A DNA stretch of 39,823 bases from a virus, in the IMG/VR virus record IMGVR_UViG_3300027736_000096, positions 1 through 39,823 of that record; one strand, 5' to 3'. How positions within the stretch are numbered: the stretch's first letter is position 1; every line of letters begins with the position of its first letter. Positions 1,535-27,376 of this stretch are shown piece by piece. The notes below the pieces were generated by a model. That model ran no database searches, was not told the DNA's origin, and saw nothing but the letters and a program-made list of their open reading frames with translations. Made by a program: the position numbers and the translations under genes.

Positions 1535-2155
1535 TCAAGTTAAAATTTCAATCGCATGATTGTAATGATTGATACGATCTTCAAGTCCAATGTAACCGCC
1601 ATTAATGCGTTTAGTCATCAACTTCAAGTCTCCGATATCTGCTAAATCATTTAACTTAGCGGCAGTCCAAAACCAACCTGCTGAGTGAATTGCATATTCT
1701 GGATCAAGCAACATGTCTGGATTCTGTACTAAAGAATCATCTTCAAACATATTCTGCGACACTTTTATATAGTTATTTTTTCCTGTGATTTGAACAATTC
1801 CTCGACCACGATAAGTCCATCCATCATTACTACGTTCATCACCATTGCCCATACGATTTGCATAAACTCTATTTGCAATCTTTTGAGGTTGTCTTTCGTA
1901 TTGCTTTGCAATCTCATCTGTTGGGAAGTATTTACCAAACGTTCCTCTGAGTCCCTTTGCACTATAGTTTAGGTTCTCTTGCATGAGAGTAAATCCACCC
2001 GATTCATGTCCACATTGTGCCATGAATGCCGCAACTCTTTGGGGCGTGTCGATATCGTAATCAGGTAAAATTGTGCTTAACAATTCATACCATTGATCAA
2101 AATTCTTTACTTTCGGCATCAATTGTTTTGCCGCTTCTGGTGTAAAAAAGTCCAT
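1535..2155 (-). CDS. Endolysin, glycoside hydrolase family 19 (chitinase-like)
   Basis: A 206-residue single-domain enzyme expected to cleave the glycan strands of host peptidoglycan at the end of infection. The GH19 signature is clear: HESGGF at residues 50-55 carrying the first catalytic Glu (E51), and NGDERSNDGWTYRGRG (residues 104-119) carrying the second Glu (E107), followed by IVQITGKNNY. No signal peptide is visible, so a holin would be needed for release. The ATG at 2155 has an ideal TAGGAG ribosome site 6 nt upstream. The spanin and small membrane genes lie 15 kb away, so the lysis genes are split. A T4-type late promoter and a hairpin covering the ribosome site lie directly upstream. 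Confidence 0.93.
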   Translation of the reverse strand: MDFFTPEAAKQLMPKVKNFDQWYELLSTILPDYDIDTPQRVAAFMAQCGHESGGFTLMQENLNYSAKGLRGTFGKYFPTDEIAKQYERQPQKIANRVYANRMGNGDERSNDGWTYRGRGIVQITGKNNYIKVSQNMFEDDSLVQNPDMLLDPEYAIHSAGWFWTAAKLNDLADIGDLKLMTKRINGGYIGLEDRINHYNHAIEILT

Positions 2156-2161
2156 TGCTGT

Positions 2162-2184
2162 CTCCTATTTTATAATCATAGGAG
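2162..2184 (-). promoter_or_regulatory. Hairpin covering the endolysin ribosome binding site
   Basis: On the minus strand CTCCTA (2184-2179) is followed by an 11-nt loop and TAGGAG (2167-2162), a perfect 6-bp stem. The 3' arm is the Shine-Dalgarno sequence of the endolysin, 6 nt before its ATG. The 5' arm lies immediately after the late box and, by T4 spacing, upstream of the late start point, so only read-through RNA would contain the whole hairpin. The pairing is seen; the regulatory effect is inferred from the known T4 gene e case. Confidence 0.6.
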
Positions 2185-2192
2185 TATTTATA
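2185..2192 (-). promoter_or_regulatory. T4-type late promoter for endolysin
   Basis: The minus strand carries an exact TATAAATA box followed by CTCCT, 30 bp before the endolysin start. TATAAATA is the established late promoter element of T4-like phages, read by host polymerase with the phage late sigma factor. Using T4 spacing, transcription would start near 2179. Confidence 0.8.
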
Positions 2193-2193
2193 T

Positions 2194-2865
2194 TCAATCC
2201 CAAAGTGCTTGATAGTATTTTCCGAACAAACGAAATCCGTTCTTGATTCGTTCCTCAACAATTGCCATGCCGTCATAGTCACATTTGTATGTGTGTTTGG
2301 GACCTTCTTCCAATCTAAACATTTTTGGCTTACCATTTTCATCCCACTCACAAGCAACCGACTTATGATCAAATTCACCTGACCGATATCCTTCTTCCCA
2401 CTCTTTATTGATGTGGTGATCGAATGCAAAAATCATTTCATCCATGACCCAATCCCAACGCTTGAAATGGTTGTCATCGGTGTCCCATTCATTTTCTTTT
2501 GCTGGCGCTGAAGTAGACTTCAATTCTTCTGGCACATCTTCATCATCAACAAAAGGCGCACCATGCTTTTTATCTTTCAACTGTTTCAACATAGGCAAAG
2601 CAATTTGACCAAGAGTATGATCCATAGACCAAGTATCCCAATAGTCAATCTTCACATAGTCAATCTTAGGGTGAATTACATCCAAGACTTTTGCAATCAC
2701 TTTGCAGATAGGGTCTAAAAAATTAACCCACTTCTCGTATGGTGCGTTAGGCTTGTCTTCGAGATTATAGAACACATCATTAGTTTTTTCCCAAAAGCAA
2801 ACAAACTCTAAGATGTGATATGGACTTAGCCAGTGATTACGATATCCGCTGATGTAGACTTTCAT
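2194..2865 (-). CDS. Conserved phage protein of unknown function, coupled to halogenase
   Basis: A 223-residue soluble protein, acidic and aromatic-rich (many Trp and Tyr), beginning MKVYISGYRNHW. A conserved-looking N-terminal block (SPYHILEFVCFW) is followed by a segment with several Trp/Asp/His (YWDTWSMDHTLGQIALPML, about residues 75-93) and a later DDNHFKRWDWVMDEMIFAFD block. I do not recognise a named domain; from memory similar proteins occur in many tailed phages. Its ATG overlaps the halogenase stop by 4 bp (ATGA), so the two are translationally coupled. Confidence 0.75.
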   Translation of the reverse strand: MKVYISGYRNHWLSPYHILEFVCFWEKTNDVFYNLEDKPNAPYEKWVNFLDPICKVIAKVLDVIHPKIDYVKIDYWDTWSMDHTLGQIALPMLKQLKDKKHGAPFVDDEDVPEELKSTSAPAKENEWDTDDNHFKRWDWVMDEMIFAFDHHINKEWEEGYRSGEFDHKSVACEWDENGKPKMFRLEEGPKHTYKCDYDGMAIVEERIKNGFRLFGKYYQALWD

Positions 2866-4337
2866 ATTGGTTGGTATTCGTTGATTTGTTTAAGGAATTC
2901 TTTATGATCTAATGCTTGAGTTGCAGTCAAAGCATCAATTATTTCTCTATACTCTTGTGGTGATGGACGAACATTCTCAAAGCCCTTAATATTGATAGGC
3001 TTTTCAAATATTTCAAGTCCATAACCAACTTGAAGATAACTATACAAAGCAAAGTATACATTGATACGCATGTTTGGAATGTTATAGGGACGTAGATTTC
3101 CATCTTTAAGAAATGGAATCAAATTTCTAATATATTCTGGTGGAGGATTTTTCTCCACAAACTCAGTCCAAAATGGGCTATCTTTTCGTTTTGTGAGATA
3201 GTGAAAGTATACAAACCCCATAGTGTCATCCATGTTGTTTCTTGCAATATCGTTAAACACTTTGATACTATTCTCATCGGGATTGTCAATCTCATTAATG
3301 AATTGACGGAAAGTATCTAACTCACCGACAGACAAAAAGATAGACGTTGATTCTAATGGTTCAATAAAACTAGAAGACAATCCAACTGCAAGACAGTTTT
3401 TGATCCAATAGTTTTCAAAGCGACCTGGATTCAGATCAATAACTTTACGCACCTTGATTTCTTGCCCTAAGTATTCTTCAACTTCAGCCTTTGCTTGTTC
3501 TACTGTGATATAATCGGAATCGAAAACATAACCTGCACCTGTACGATGTTGCAGAGGAATTTGCCACATCCATCCATACTTCATTGCAATTGCAGAAGTG
3601 TATGGTTTGAGTTCAGTCTCTTGAATCCAAAATGGAATCGCTTTCTTCATTGGCAGATATTTTGAATACGATACCCATTCGTCTTTATACACTCCACCAA
3701 TCAACAGTCTAGCCATGCCAGAACAATCAAAAACAAAGTCTACGGGAACACTACGCCCATCTTCAAGATTCAATGCTTTAATATACTCACGTTCATCTTG
3801 TGTTGCGTGAGTATACACACCTTCAACAATTTCAATACCACGTTCAACACCTTTTTCGGATAAATATTTTGAAAATTCATTCGTATCGAAATGAATTGCC
3901 CATTCCGTTCTATGCAAATCAATTTTATTATCGTATGCTAGATGAATTTGATAATTGTAATCTTCTAAACTCAAACCTTCAGCAATACATTTCTTCAAAA
4001 AGAAATCTTGCCCGTCTACACCAAATGTAGGTTGAACTGAGAAGTCTGTGACTTTATCACAAAATCCATGCATGTAACGTTTCTCATCGCCATTCCAATT
4101 TTCAAAATTAATTCCACTCTTAATCGTGCCTTTAGTGCTTCGAATCAAATCGATGATATCAATATTAATTTGCGAAAGAAACGCAACGATGTTTGGTGTT
4201 GTCGCTTCACCAACACCAATGATACCAATTTCTTTGCTTTGAACGACAGTAATTTTATCATTTGGAAAAACTGTATGTGCATACAATGCAGTCAACCAAC
4301 CAGCGGTACCGCCACCCAATACTACGATATTTCTCAT
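2862..4337 (-). CDS. Flavin-dependent (tryptophan-type) halogenase
   Basis: A 491-residue protein of the flavin-dependent halogenase family, which uses FADH2, oxygen and halide to halogenate an aromatic or other electron-rich substrate. Visible are the FAD-binding GGGTAGW (residues 8-14), GVGEAT (41-46), the lysine of TIKSG (K73) at the place of the catalytic lysine, the signature WMWQIP with W256 and W258, and EPLESTSI (326-333) holding the catalytic Glu/Ser pair (E329, S330). All key residues are present, so it is probably active; the substrate is unknown. A flavin reductase is not seen nearby and may come from the host. ATGA overlaps couple it to genes on both sides; GGAG precedes the start. 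Confidence 0.9.
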   Translation of the reverse strand: MRNIVVLGGGTAGWLTALYAHTVFPNDKITVVQSKEIGIIGVGEATTPNIVAFLSQINIDIIDLIRSTKGTIKSGINFENWNGDEKRYMHGFCDKVTDFSVQPTFGVDGQDFFLKKCIAEGLSLEDYNYQIHLAYDNKIDLHRTEWAIHFDTNEFSKYLSEKGVERGIEIVEGVYTHATQDEREYIKALNLEDGRSVPVDFVFDCSGMARLLIGGVYKDEWVSYSKYLPMKKAIPFWIQETELKPYTSAIAMKYGWMWQIPLQHRTGAGYVFDSDYITVEQAKAEVEEYLGQEIKVRKVIDLNPGRFENYWIKNCLAVGLSSSFIEPLESTSIFLSVGELDTFRQFINEIDNPDENSIKVFNDIARNNMDDTMGFVYFHYLTKRKDSPFWTEFVEKNPPPEYIRNLIPFLKDGNLRPYNIPNMRINVYFALYSYLQVGYGLEIFEKPINIKGFENVRPSPQEYREIIDALTATQALDHKEFLKQINEYQPI

Positions 4338-4498: not shown

Positions 4499-4712
4499 AT
4501 ATCCTTGTAAATGGACTGTTAACAACAAAATCTTCAGGCAATGCTTCTACAATCTTTGTGAAATGATATGGATCCGGATAGTGCCTTAGAATACTTCTCG
4601 CACGTTCACGCACGTATTTAGGCACTTTTGGTGTTACTTTGGGATTCAATAAATCTAAAAGTAATTGTTGTCCGCATCTCAACGAACGATATCTTTCATC
4701 GGGTAGAGTCAT
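4476..4712 (-). CDS. BPSL0761-family small protein
   Basis: A 78-residue protein that begins MTLPDERYRSLRCGQQLLLD and continues with DLLNPKVTPKVPKYVRERARSILRHYP split around residues 20-46. This matches, from memory, the BPSL0761 family, common in betaproteobacteria and of unknown function. It may reflect gene exchange with a betaproteobacterial host. It overlaps the AbrB-like gene upstream by 17 bp and the next small gene downstream by 23 bp, so it belongs to the early operon driven from the promoter at 5210-5238. Confidence 0.75.
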   Translation of the reverse strand: MTLPDERYRSLRCGQQLLLDLLNPKVTPKVPKYVRERARSILRHYPDPYHFTKIVEALPEDFVVNSPFTRIYDESKDV

Positions 4713-5184
4713 AATTATCTTTCCGAATGTGTTCGTCCATTGTGGTAAAAAATGTTTTCTTTTTCAACTCATCATTCCATACTTTTGCGTAATCATTGTC
4801 TTTGTCGCACAATGCAAGTGCTTCTTCTTCAGTCACAATACGATGTGACATAATAGTTTCACCCAAATGTTCTTGTGAAAATTCTTTTGCTTCACTTAGA
4901 GTAACAGTATCAAGTGCCCACTCCGATTTATCTTTACCATAGCGATCTGTGCCAATAGGAACTTCTACCATGTAGCGTTCACGGAACATAGAAACGGCTT
5001 CAACAAGAACCCATTGTGTTTCTTTCTTTCTCATAGTCCAACTCCCATCACCATTGTCAATCCAATCTAAAGTGTCGCCAGTTTGCCAACCAGTTCCTGC
5101 AAGTATTTCATCATTCAATGGAAGAATCAAGTCACCAGTTTCGGCGTCTTTTTCCAACGTTATAATCCAAGATTTGTTTTCCAT
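4696..5184 (-). CDS. AbrB/SpoVT-like N-terminal domain protein
   Basis: A 162-residue protein. The first 50 residues (WIITLEKDAETGDLILPLND, then LAGTGWQTGDTLDWIDNGDG) have the pattern of a swapped-hairpin AbrB/SpoVT DNA-binding domain. The rest is acidic with no recognised domain. Such proteins are usually small transcription regulators, but here the function is inferred only from the N-terminus. The start has a strong AAGGAG site and a consensus sigma70 promoter sits just upstream, so this is the first gene of an early operon leading to the halogenase. Confidence 0.6.
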   Translation of the reverse strand: MENKSWIITLEKDAETGDLILPLNDEILAGTGWQTGDTLDWIDNGDGSWTMRKKETQWVLVEAVSMFRERYMVEVPIGTDRYGKDKSEWALDTVTLSEAKEFSQEHLGETIMSHRIVTEEEALALCDKDNDYAKVWNDELKKKTFFTTMDEHIRKDNYDSTR

Positions 5185-5209
5185 AGGTACTCCTTAAGCG
5201 AATACATTC

Positions 5210-5238
5210 ATTATAACTTAACAACTGTGGAATGTCAA
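5210..5238 (-). promoter_or_regulatory. Sigma70-type early promoter
   Basis: On the minus strand TTGACA (5238-5233), a 17-bp spacer and TATAAT (5215-5210), a perfect consensus. It lies 26 bp before the AbrB-like gene and overlaps only the last codons of the upstream membrane-protein gene. Confidence 0.85.
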
Positions 5239-7722: not shown

Positions 7723-7751
7723 ATTATACTCTATTGGGTTTCAGTTGTCAA
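7723..7751 (-). promoter_or_regulatory. Sigma70-type early promoter for clpP
   Basis: Minus strand TTGACA (7751-7746), 17 bp, TATAAT (7728-7723), a perfect consensus, 28 bp before the ClpP start and overlapping the end of the RuvC-like gene. Confidence 0.85.
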
Positions 7752-26118: not shown

Positions 26119-27345
26119 TTACCTCTGCCAACCTTTAATAACATCAGGCGAGAAATTAGCGTAACTGAACTGCATTCTGTCAACCAGTTTGACTGCATTG
26201 CCTTTAATCTTATCGATTGCTACGTATCCCTCAACACCAGTCACTTCGTAGCCTTTCTTTGTCAACAAGAAAGTATTCAACGTCTTAACTTCATCCATCT
26301 TCTTAATTAGAATCAACTTCGCTTCTGCTAAGAGATTCATCATTGTGAAAATGTCTTCTAAGTGTGTTTTGTTTTTGGCAGAGAAAAACTTCAAAACGTT
26401 TTGTTTCTTTAGCATTTGAGTAGCACGACCTTTTTCGCCTTTGCCTTCTGCTTGCTTTTCATAATATGAATCAACGTAGTCAATCAATTCTGCTACGTGC
26501 GTTTTTACGTTTGTGATTTTTAACTGTTGACGCACTTTAGAGTTGTTGAATGTTTTGATTCTTTCAATCAAATCTGCATCTGAGTTGATGTAGTTTAGAG
26601 TTTTAGCATCCAACTTTTGAAATATTTTACCTGCTTGGGATAGAATTGCTGTTACTTGATTAGTTTCTTCCTGTGTCATTGTTGCTTTACCCGACACATC
26701 ATGATAATCTACGCCTGTCATCCAAACGTTAGGATTTTGTGTGAGTGAGCCGATAACATCCTTACCAAAGACTGCTTTCATTGTTTCAAATGAATTGCCT
26801 TCGTAAATTGTGTGCCATACGACACCAATTTTTGCTCTTTTTATGTTCTTAGCGAGTTCACTTTCTGCTGGAACTGCGTATACAATTGTATTCGGATGAA
26901 ATGTTACATACGATTCGCCATCAATTGTTTCTGTTTTTAAATCGTTTGCAGTAAACAATAAGTCGCCTTGAATGACGCCTTTGATTCCTATCTTAGGCAA
27001 CCACATTAAACATGCTTTGAGTTTTTCTGCTAGATCGCCTGAAGTGTCTGCTTCAATATCAGCAAATGTTTTATAGACTTTTGGATTTTTATTGAAGACA
27101 CCCTTCTTCGCAACAAAGAATTTGCCGTCTGTTGGGTCTTGTCCTGCGAATACTGCTGGCGCACCATCCCATTTGACTGTAACGTCAACTTTCTTTTCGG
27201 AATGACCGGCAAGCATGTCACGTACTGCTCTGAGTGCGTTTATGCTGTCTCTTGTGCCTTGAACACCACCATTTAGAACATCGTCTTCCGCATGTTCCAT
27301 GTGTGTGTTTTTTTGTTCTATAAGATAATCAGTAAATTTTTTCAT
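26119..27345 (-). CDS. DUF6267-like protein with covalent nucleotidyltransferase (ligase-like) motifs
   Basis: A 408-residue protein that resembles, from memory, the DUF6267 family of T4-like phages. It has a set of motifs of ATP-dependent ligases and capping enzymes: VKWDGAPA with K58-D60-G61 as motif I, AKKGVFNK (79-86), VIQGDLLF (124-131) as motif III-like, VEGYVAIDK as motif IV-like near residue 370, and a final AVKLVDR as motif V-like. An RNA or DNA ligase-type adenylation of K58 is therefore likely, with unknown target. It is late-expressed: a TATAAATA box and an RBS-covering hairpin are directly upstream. It ends 152 bp before the 898-residue gene. Confidence 0.78.
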   Translation of the reverse strand: MKKFTDYLIEQKNTHMEHAEDDVLNGGVQGTRDSINALRAVRDMLAGHSEKKVDVTVKWDGAPAVFAGQDPTDGKFFVAKKGVFNKNPKVYKTFADIEADTSGDLAEKLKACLMWLPKIGIKGVIQGDLLFTANDLKTETIDGESYVTFHPNTIVYAVPAESELAKNIKRAKIGVVWHTIYEGNSFETMKAVFGKDVIGSLTQNPNVWMTGVDYHDVSGKATMTQEETNQVTAILSQAGKIFQKLDAKTLNYINSDADLIERIKTFNNSKVRQQLKITNVKTHVAELIDYVDSYYEKQAEGKGEKGRATQMLKKQNVLKFFSAKNKTHLEDIFTMMNLLAEAKLILIKKMDEVKTLNTFLLTKKGYEVTGVEGYVAIDKIKGNAVKLVDRMQFSYANFSPDVIKGWQR

Positions 27346-27349
27346 TAGA

Positions 27350-27368
27350 GTCCACCGTTGCGATGGAC
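27350..27368 (-). promoter_or_regulatory. Hairpin covering the ribosome site of the ligase-like gene
   Basis: Minus strand GTCCATCG, loop CAA, CGGTGGAC: eight pairs including one G-T. The 3' arm holds the probable ribosome site GGTGG, 6 nt before the ATG. By T4 spacing a late transcript starts near 27363 and lacks the first five bases of the 5' arm. Confidence 0.6.
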
Positions 27369-27376
27369 TATTTATA
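27369..27376 (-). promoter_or_regulatory. T4-type late promoter
   Basis: Exact TATAAATA on the minus strand, 24 bp before the ligase-like gene and immediately after the stop of the 112-residue gene. Confidence 0.8.

Follow-up and report, generated by a model that had tools for sequence, protein, structure and literature searches.

A late promoter nested in a ribosome-site hairpin as a probable temporal lock on a GH19 phage endolysin

The GH19 endolysin gene of a 39,823-base virus record (the window, that is, the whole stretch of DNA analysed) very probably carries a temporal lock working as in T4 gene e, in which a late promoter is nested in a hairpin that hides the Shine-Dalgarno sequence (SD). 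Early in infection, host sigma-70 polymerase would start near 5200 and read through the operon into the endolysin gene, giving an RNA that would hold the full 7-bp hairpin with the SD paired and the endolysin hardly translated. Late in infection, a gp55-type polymerase would start at about 2179, inside the 5' arm of the hairpin, so that five of the seven pairs could not form and the SD would be open. We infer the late start site, the early read-through, the repression and its timing from the sequences of the window and its relatives. The gene e logic had been proposed in a preliminary description of this DNA, and the proposal gains support from covariation of the hairpin arms, from SD opening predicted to be cheaper in every late leader compared, from an early-type promoter upstream and from recurrence of the layout in the Vibrio phages pv27 and Va1. 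The record encodes a family B polymerase, UvsX, a DnaB-like helicase and a primase, together with thymidylate synthase and ribonucleotide reductase, and 15 named phage records match positions 4400-1400 by DNA, the best covered being Pelagibacter phage HTVC008M (14%, in the halogenase).

The endolysin leader and its conservation

The endolysin gene (1535..2155, minus strand; 206 aa) belongs to phrog_181 (endolysin) and matches only GH19 in Pfam (PF00182, E 1.7e-7), which places it outside the T4 lysozyme family and bears out its description as an unrelated GH19 enzyme. The minus-strand leader is laid out exactly as first described, with a T4-type late promoter box TATAAATA (2192-2185) followed by CTCCTA (2184-2179), 11 nt, TAGGAG (2167-2162), the 6 nt ACAGCA and the ATG (2155-2153). 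TAGGAG and CTCCTA do pair perfectly, but the stem is 7 bp long and not 6, with a 5' arm CTCCTAT (2178..2184) and a 3' arm ATAGGAG (2162..2168, containing the SD), both supported by the fold and by relatives, on either side of a 9-nt loop, GATTATAAA (2169..2177). This perfect stem begins directly after the box and pairs the whole SD. Folded locally (36 nt), the hairpin reaches -8.5 kcal/mol, a value matched by 0 of 200 dinucleotide shuffles (z -3.55), and for the leader fold 0 of 500 shuffles were as good; within 111 nt of context the total energy is unremarkable (z -0.16; 81/200 shuffles as good) and the stem is still present in the minimum-energy and centroid structures. The box sequence is not rare in the window (five copies observed, 3.7 expected), all five copies lying on the minus strand and four of them outside long ORFs. 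An Rfam scan of the window at gathering scores gave no matches and a tRNA scan found nothing.

A scan of the viral_contigs collection for endolysin relatives found 156, of which the best 80 were taken for comparison; one locus (L051) was left out because it begins inside the gene, without the gene's 5' end. Among these best 80, box, hairpin and SD are in register in all 48 loci with endolysins 71-100% identical to that of the window (L003-L050), and the element is absent, by eye, from 31 loci at 52-55% identity (L052-L082). Together with the window, the 48 relatives form 49 rows and 24 distinct leaders, every one of which has a predicted hairpin behind the box (-3.1 to -12.0 kcal/mol); once the first five bases are removed, -2.5 kcal/mol or weaker remains. 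The stem base is the first nucleotide after the box in 22 of the 24, and in every leader group the stem covers the SD wholly or for the most part. The element is kept where an extra ORF (L021, L024) or extra sequence (L048) lies between the gene upstream and the leader. A search of plasmids returned 153 matching records, all less than 60% identical.

Paired changes in related phages had been named as a check on the hairpin, and predicted pairs do vary in both partners at several places along the stem (e.g., A-T/T-A/C-G, T-A/G-C and G-C/T-A/A-T), as counted on predicted folds, which favours pairing, because the MAFFT alignment (A1) shifts the 3' arm between groups. An arm change lacking its partner, which had been named as refuting the proposal, does turn up, though seldom: L021 has a single mismatch from an unpaired change in the anti-SD arm, and the stems of L047 and L049 are weak. 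Own 3' arms pair better on average than swapped ones (-10.2 vs -8.2). Foreign 3' arms paired as well as the leader's own in 0/23 cases for L046, 1/23 for L048 and 0/23 for L050, as against 22/23 for L047 and 5/23 for L049. For L047 the fold is weak (-3.1 kcal/mol; 176/500 shuffles as good), with 35/500 shuffles as good for L049 and 16/500 for the L005 type.

The cost of opening the SD 4-mer at 37 C was computed for the 24 leaders as 3.9-12.6 kcal/mol (median 6.95) in the read-through RNA and 0.3-3.8 kcal/mol (median 1.3) in the predicted late RNA, the late form being the cheaper to open in 24 of 24. In the predicted late RNA the SD has only a modest mean unpaired probability (0.05-0.85, median 0.47). 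Three leaders (L005, L007 and L026, together 17 loci) leave the last SD bases outside the stem, and there the mean unpaired probability is higher in the read-through than in the late RNA, though the late opening cost is lower.

Early read-through and the late promoter

On the minus strand the main ORFs begin with the primase (16309), continue with thymidylate synthase and ribonucleotide reductase and end at the endolysin; that strand has no exact TATAAATA between 20189 and 2192. The proposed early start is a sigma-70 promoter found by consensus scan that fits the consensus at 12 of 12 positions (TTGACA-17-TATAAT, 5210..5238, minus), followed by a 162-aa gene (4696..5184, minus), a tryptophan halogenase (2862..4337, minus; PF04820, E 5.9e-107) and, directly upstream of the endolysin, a 223-aa gene (2194..2865, minus; phrog_11543), whose TGA stop (2196-2194) ends one base before the late box. 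The window has nine sigma-70 sites of at least 11/12, every one on the minus strand, where 20 crude shuffles gave a mean of 2.05; two of the sites are 12/12, and such sites occurred in 2 of the 20 shuffles. The other 12/12 promoter, also TTGACA-17-TATAAT, lies at 7751 (minus), on the gene strand.

A site of at least 11/12 stands at -1.9 to -3.1 kb from the endolysin in 32 of the 48 relatives, 6 of the 48 holding less than 1.7 kb upstream. In L042-L045 a 10/12 site stands about -1.95 kb away, which in the two inspected (L042, L045) precedes the same gene as the promoter of the window, and in L047, L049 and L050 a tRNA-Met gene occupies the promoter's place, with nothing better than 10/12 sites upstream of it. 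The halogenase operon had been put forward as the source of read-through RNA, and the promoter upstream of it agrees with this; the halogenase itself does not hold as a conserved feeder, being absent within 2.6 kb upstream in several relatives (e.g., L004, L034, L020), and the conserved upstream neighbour of the endolysin is the 223-aa gene. The consensus scan listed no terminator in the 38-nt gap before the endolysin, and between the promoter at 5238-5210 and the endolysin it gave three weak terminator-like sites on the minus strand (five on both strands vs 2.3 expected). A sigma-70-like site at 2203-2175 (9/12), which overlaps the hairpin, was rejected as an endolysin promoter: 13 such sites were found vs 14.3 expected, and its spacing is lost, by eye, in the relatives with the variant box described below.

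T4 late boxes are 8 bp long and lie about one helical turn upstream of the start, with the first base at -13 (PMC2988020). Because they thus span -13 to -6, the box of the window predicts a late start at an A at 2179 (minus), the sixth nucleotide after the box, as had been estimated before. The intervening CTCCT (2180..2184, minus), the anti-SD arm, would occupy -5 to -1; with a start at A2179 it would therefore not be transcribed and the stem would be lost, and an RNA begun at 2179 has no endolysin stem in its predicted fold. Counted from nucleotide 5 after the box, the first purine is nucleotide 6 in 19 and nucleotide 7 in 5 of the 24 distinct leaders. By T4 spacing, then, the late start is predicted to fall inside the helix, which the late RNA could not form.

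The late box originally described, TATAAATA, is present in the window and in 7 of the 48 relatives, but the other 41 (L005-L045) read GCTAAATA instead. In phage Aeh1, a/gC replaces TA at -13/-12 of the late box (PMC2988020), a consensus that GCTAAATA fits. In the genomes examined, GCTAAATA is not enriched between genes. The other late-box leaders listed for G001, a 150-kb relative, have TATAAATA or CATAAATA, and among its ten [AG]CTAAATA sites the sole one before an SD-started ORF is that of the endolysin; the endolysin promoter there therefore deviates from its own genome and may be weaker. The idea that GCTAAATA or ACTAAATA serves the whole genome as another late box was rejected, only 3 of 28 sites in G001-G004 preceding an SD-started ORF (the endolysin in G001, the endolysin in G004 and a 168-aa ORF in G004). 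At the last of these (G004:12544, minus), GCTAAATA is followed by 5 nt and then an 8-bp hairpin before the ORF. The late sigma gp55 (phrog_234) was found in 6 of 16 records searched (T4, pv27, Va1, G001, G002 and G005), the six including two 150-kb relatives. It was not found in the other ten, among them the 39.8-kb record of the window and the 88-kb G003, which has an identical endolysin; all ten may be fragments.

Other roles for the hairpin

Were the hairpin a terminator of the early operon, the late promoter would only restart transcription past it and the pairing of the SD would be secondary. The five most divergent endolysin leaders (L046-L050) have 6 T in the 8 nt after the stem, and a sister element before a DUF6267 gene, described below, is terminator-like in 15 of 28 distinct leaders. 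Against this, at least 5 T in those 8 nt occur in 0 of the 19 other endolysin leaders, the window reading ACAGCAAT, and the stem takes in the SD, wholly or for the most part, in each group; a terminator seems very improbable here. It is also very improbable that the hairpin instead tunes the translation of every endolysin RNA, through stability or as a thermosensor or protein site, with a late start upstream and no promoter-linked switch. Such a role would sit well with the non-canonical GCTAAATA in 41 of the 48 relatives, where the promoter is putative, but GCTAAATA agrees with the Aeh1 late consensus (PMC2988020), and a hairpin independent of the box need not have its stem base locked to the first nucleotide after it, as in 22 of 24 leaders.

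Pyrimidines predominate among the 5-6 nt that follow the box of the endolysin leaders, as might be expected if CTCCT were merely a preferred downstream sequence of late promoters, pairing by chance with any GGAG SD. Yet CTCCT directly follows the box in none of 47 listed late-box leaders (21 from T4, 13 from G001 and 13 from G002), paired changes extend to stem positions 6-8, beyond the SD, and a control pattern in IMG/VR joining the box and CCCTT with AGGAG matched 0 stretches vs 58 for CTCCT, making this reading extremely improbable. Of these readings, the temporal lock has the most support.

The same design in other phages and genes

Section 29 of PMC3014915 describes inhibitory leader structures for T4 e, soc, 49 and I-TevI, with similar e leaders in close T4 relatives and gene e of Aeh1, 44RR, 25, 31 and FelixO1 lacking apparent structure, and section 12 of PMC2988022 adds I-TevII, I-TevIII, segB and mobE. 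The logic of the endolysin lock is thus already published for T4 e, soc, 49, I-TevI and segB and for mobE; what is added here is another enzyme family, evidence from covariation, an early-type promoter that recurs in relatives, and the DUF6267 sister element. Neither a GH19 case nor a promoter-in-terminator case was found in the portions of the open-licence literature searched.

The endolysin of the window, like T4 e, is a lysis enzyme behind the genes of an upstream unit (PMC3014915, section 29). Both have late box(es) beside the SD, a stem directly after the box and a late start, predicted for the window, that removes the 5' arm, and the gap from the upstream stop to the ATG is 37 nt in T4 e and 38 nt in the window. 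T4 e differs in having two late boxes, the second inside the stem-loop, where the window has one, and in encoding a lysozyme of another family, which we take to be GH24. In the leaders of T4 segB and I-TevI and of Aeh1 mobE, too, a late promoter is nested with a helix that hides the SD (PMC2988022, section 12), but these leaders guard homing endonucleases rather than a lysis enzyme. The initiation regions of T4 soc and gene 49 likewise form an inhibitory structure (PMC3014915, section 29), though these are capsid and recombination genes and the soc stem starts at nucleotide 3 after the box; Soc homologues and one endonuclease VII gene in IMG/VR carry the CTCCT/AGGAG version.

A screen of 21 T4 late leaders recovered e, segB (CATAAATA-ctcttagaaataggag) and soc with stems; I-TevII was found without a stem, and I-TevI, I-TevIII and gene 49 were not listed. 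The largest losses of folding energy from read-through to late RNA were 5.1 for e and 4.9 for segB in that screen, and 3.0, for the endolysin, among 13 late-box leaders of G002. The cultured Vibrio phages pv27 and Va1 encode endolysins 48.5% and 48.8% identical to that of the window (GH19 by Pfam in pv27), with the leader TATAAATACTCTAAAAT(A/T)ATTTGGAGTATTTT-ATG, in which TATAAATA is overlapped by a hairpin over the endolysin SD. This stem takes in the last box bases and folds at -10.5 kcal/mol in the read-through RNA and 0.0 in the late RNA, and four further Vibrio records match the leader stretch at 94.7% or above. Among the GH19 endolysin genes of named phages six were read, and four of these (Cr30, PhiW-14, Mel-JY01 and XacN1) lack the element.

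In IMG/VR, the pattern box-CTCCT-N6-16-AGGAG-N4-9-ATG gave 59 matches in 58 stretches, with 45 distinct downstream ORFs, 42 of which were scanned (a 37-aa cut copy and two of <20 aa were left out). The ORFs matched NUMOD3 (10), GIY-YIG (5), Soc (4), HNH (2), GH19 (2), endonuclease VII (1), GH108 (1), M15 peptidase (1) and others, one protein possibly matching several families, and many are therefore published kinds of target; terminase, tail tube and several ORFs without a match also occur. Genes for an M15-peptidase endolysin (L118:5588-6076) and a GH108 endolysin (L126:3680-4297) lie behind such leaders, on contigs that had no gp55 match. A reversed-box control was not clean, with 8 stretches vs 58: in seven the match is CATAAATA-T, which is a variant of the late box in its own right, and in the remaining one (L145, AATAAATA) the ORF that follows resembles T4 lysozyme by eye. 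Another reversed-motif control had the same overlap with late-box variants and was excluded.

A second late box with an 8-bp hairpin (27346..27376, minus), supported by the fold and by relatives, precedes a 408-aa DUF6267 gene in the window (26119..27345, minus; phrog_455). The box (27376-27369) is followed by GTCCATCG-CAA-CGGTGGAC (27368-27350), 4 nt and the ATG, and the leader folds at -11.1 kcal/mol in the read-through RNA vs -0.2 in the late RNA. Of 344 related stretches, the best 80 (L196-L275) were compared: 73 have [TC]ATAAATA no more than 70 nt upstream, which makes 28 distinct leaders, and 7 do not. Stems start at nucleotide 1 after the box in 27 of the 28, with very different stem sequences, and a T-rich tail like that of an intrinsic terminator follows in 15, the leader of the window not among them; in L248 and L265 an SD-like AGGA lies beyond the tail. 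On the contigs of L201 and L223, two of the 7 in which DUF6267 has no box, a late-box terminator stands about 0.4 kb further up before a 125-aa ORF (L299, L289), as though a gene had been inserted behind the switch. A scan for promoters in terminators gave 36 stretches, and its scrambled-box control 8. DUF6267 genes make up 14 of the 36 by eye, another 3 precede a 125-aa gene of the same lineage, and the scan is therefore not general evidence. The late leader of an 898-aa cytidyltransferase-like gene of the window (26034, minus) has ggctaaggcaaacctg...ggataagtctaaggaaaactcca in common with that at G002:63356, and its predicted fold of about -8 kcal/mol is kept in the late RNA.

We tentatively consider, at somewhat less than even confidence, that late promoters whose -5 to -1 stretch doubles as a hairpin's 5' arm are a portable switch, one arising repeatedly, with promoter-in-terminator as one of its forms. 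On endolysins it would free a hidden SD, in the presumed GH24 enzyme of T4, the GH19 enzymes of the window and the Vibrio phages, the M15 enzyme of L118 and the GH108 enzyme of L126; at DUF6267, in many members of the lineage, early RNA would stop at the terminator and late RNA, born inside the stem, would escape it. The DUF6267 element suggests that a nested late promoter may also control termination, which, if true, would be a new variant. Among lysis genes, section 29 of the 2010 review (PMC3014915) lists the design only for e of T4 and its close relatives, and the same leader design sits on unrelated lysis enzymes. The cultured Vibrio phages with this leader make the lock testable. T4-type phages may delay lysis through a late promoter nested in an SD-hiding hairpin, with paired changes in that hairpin found outside the T4 group.
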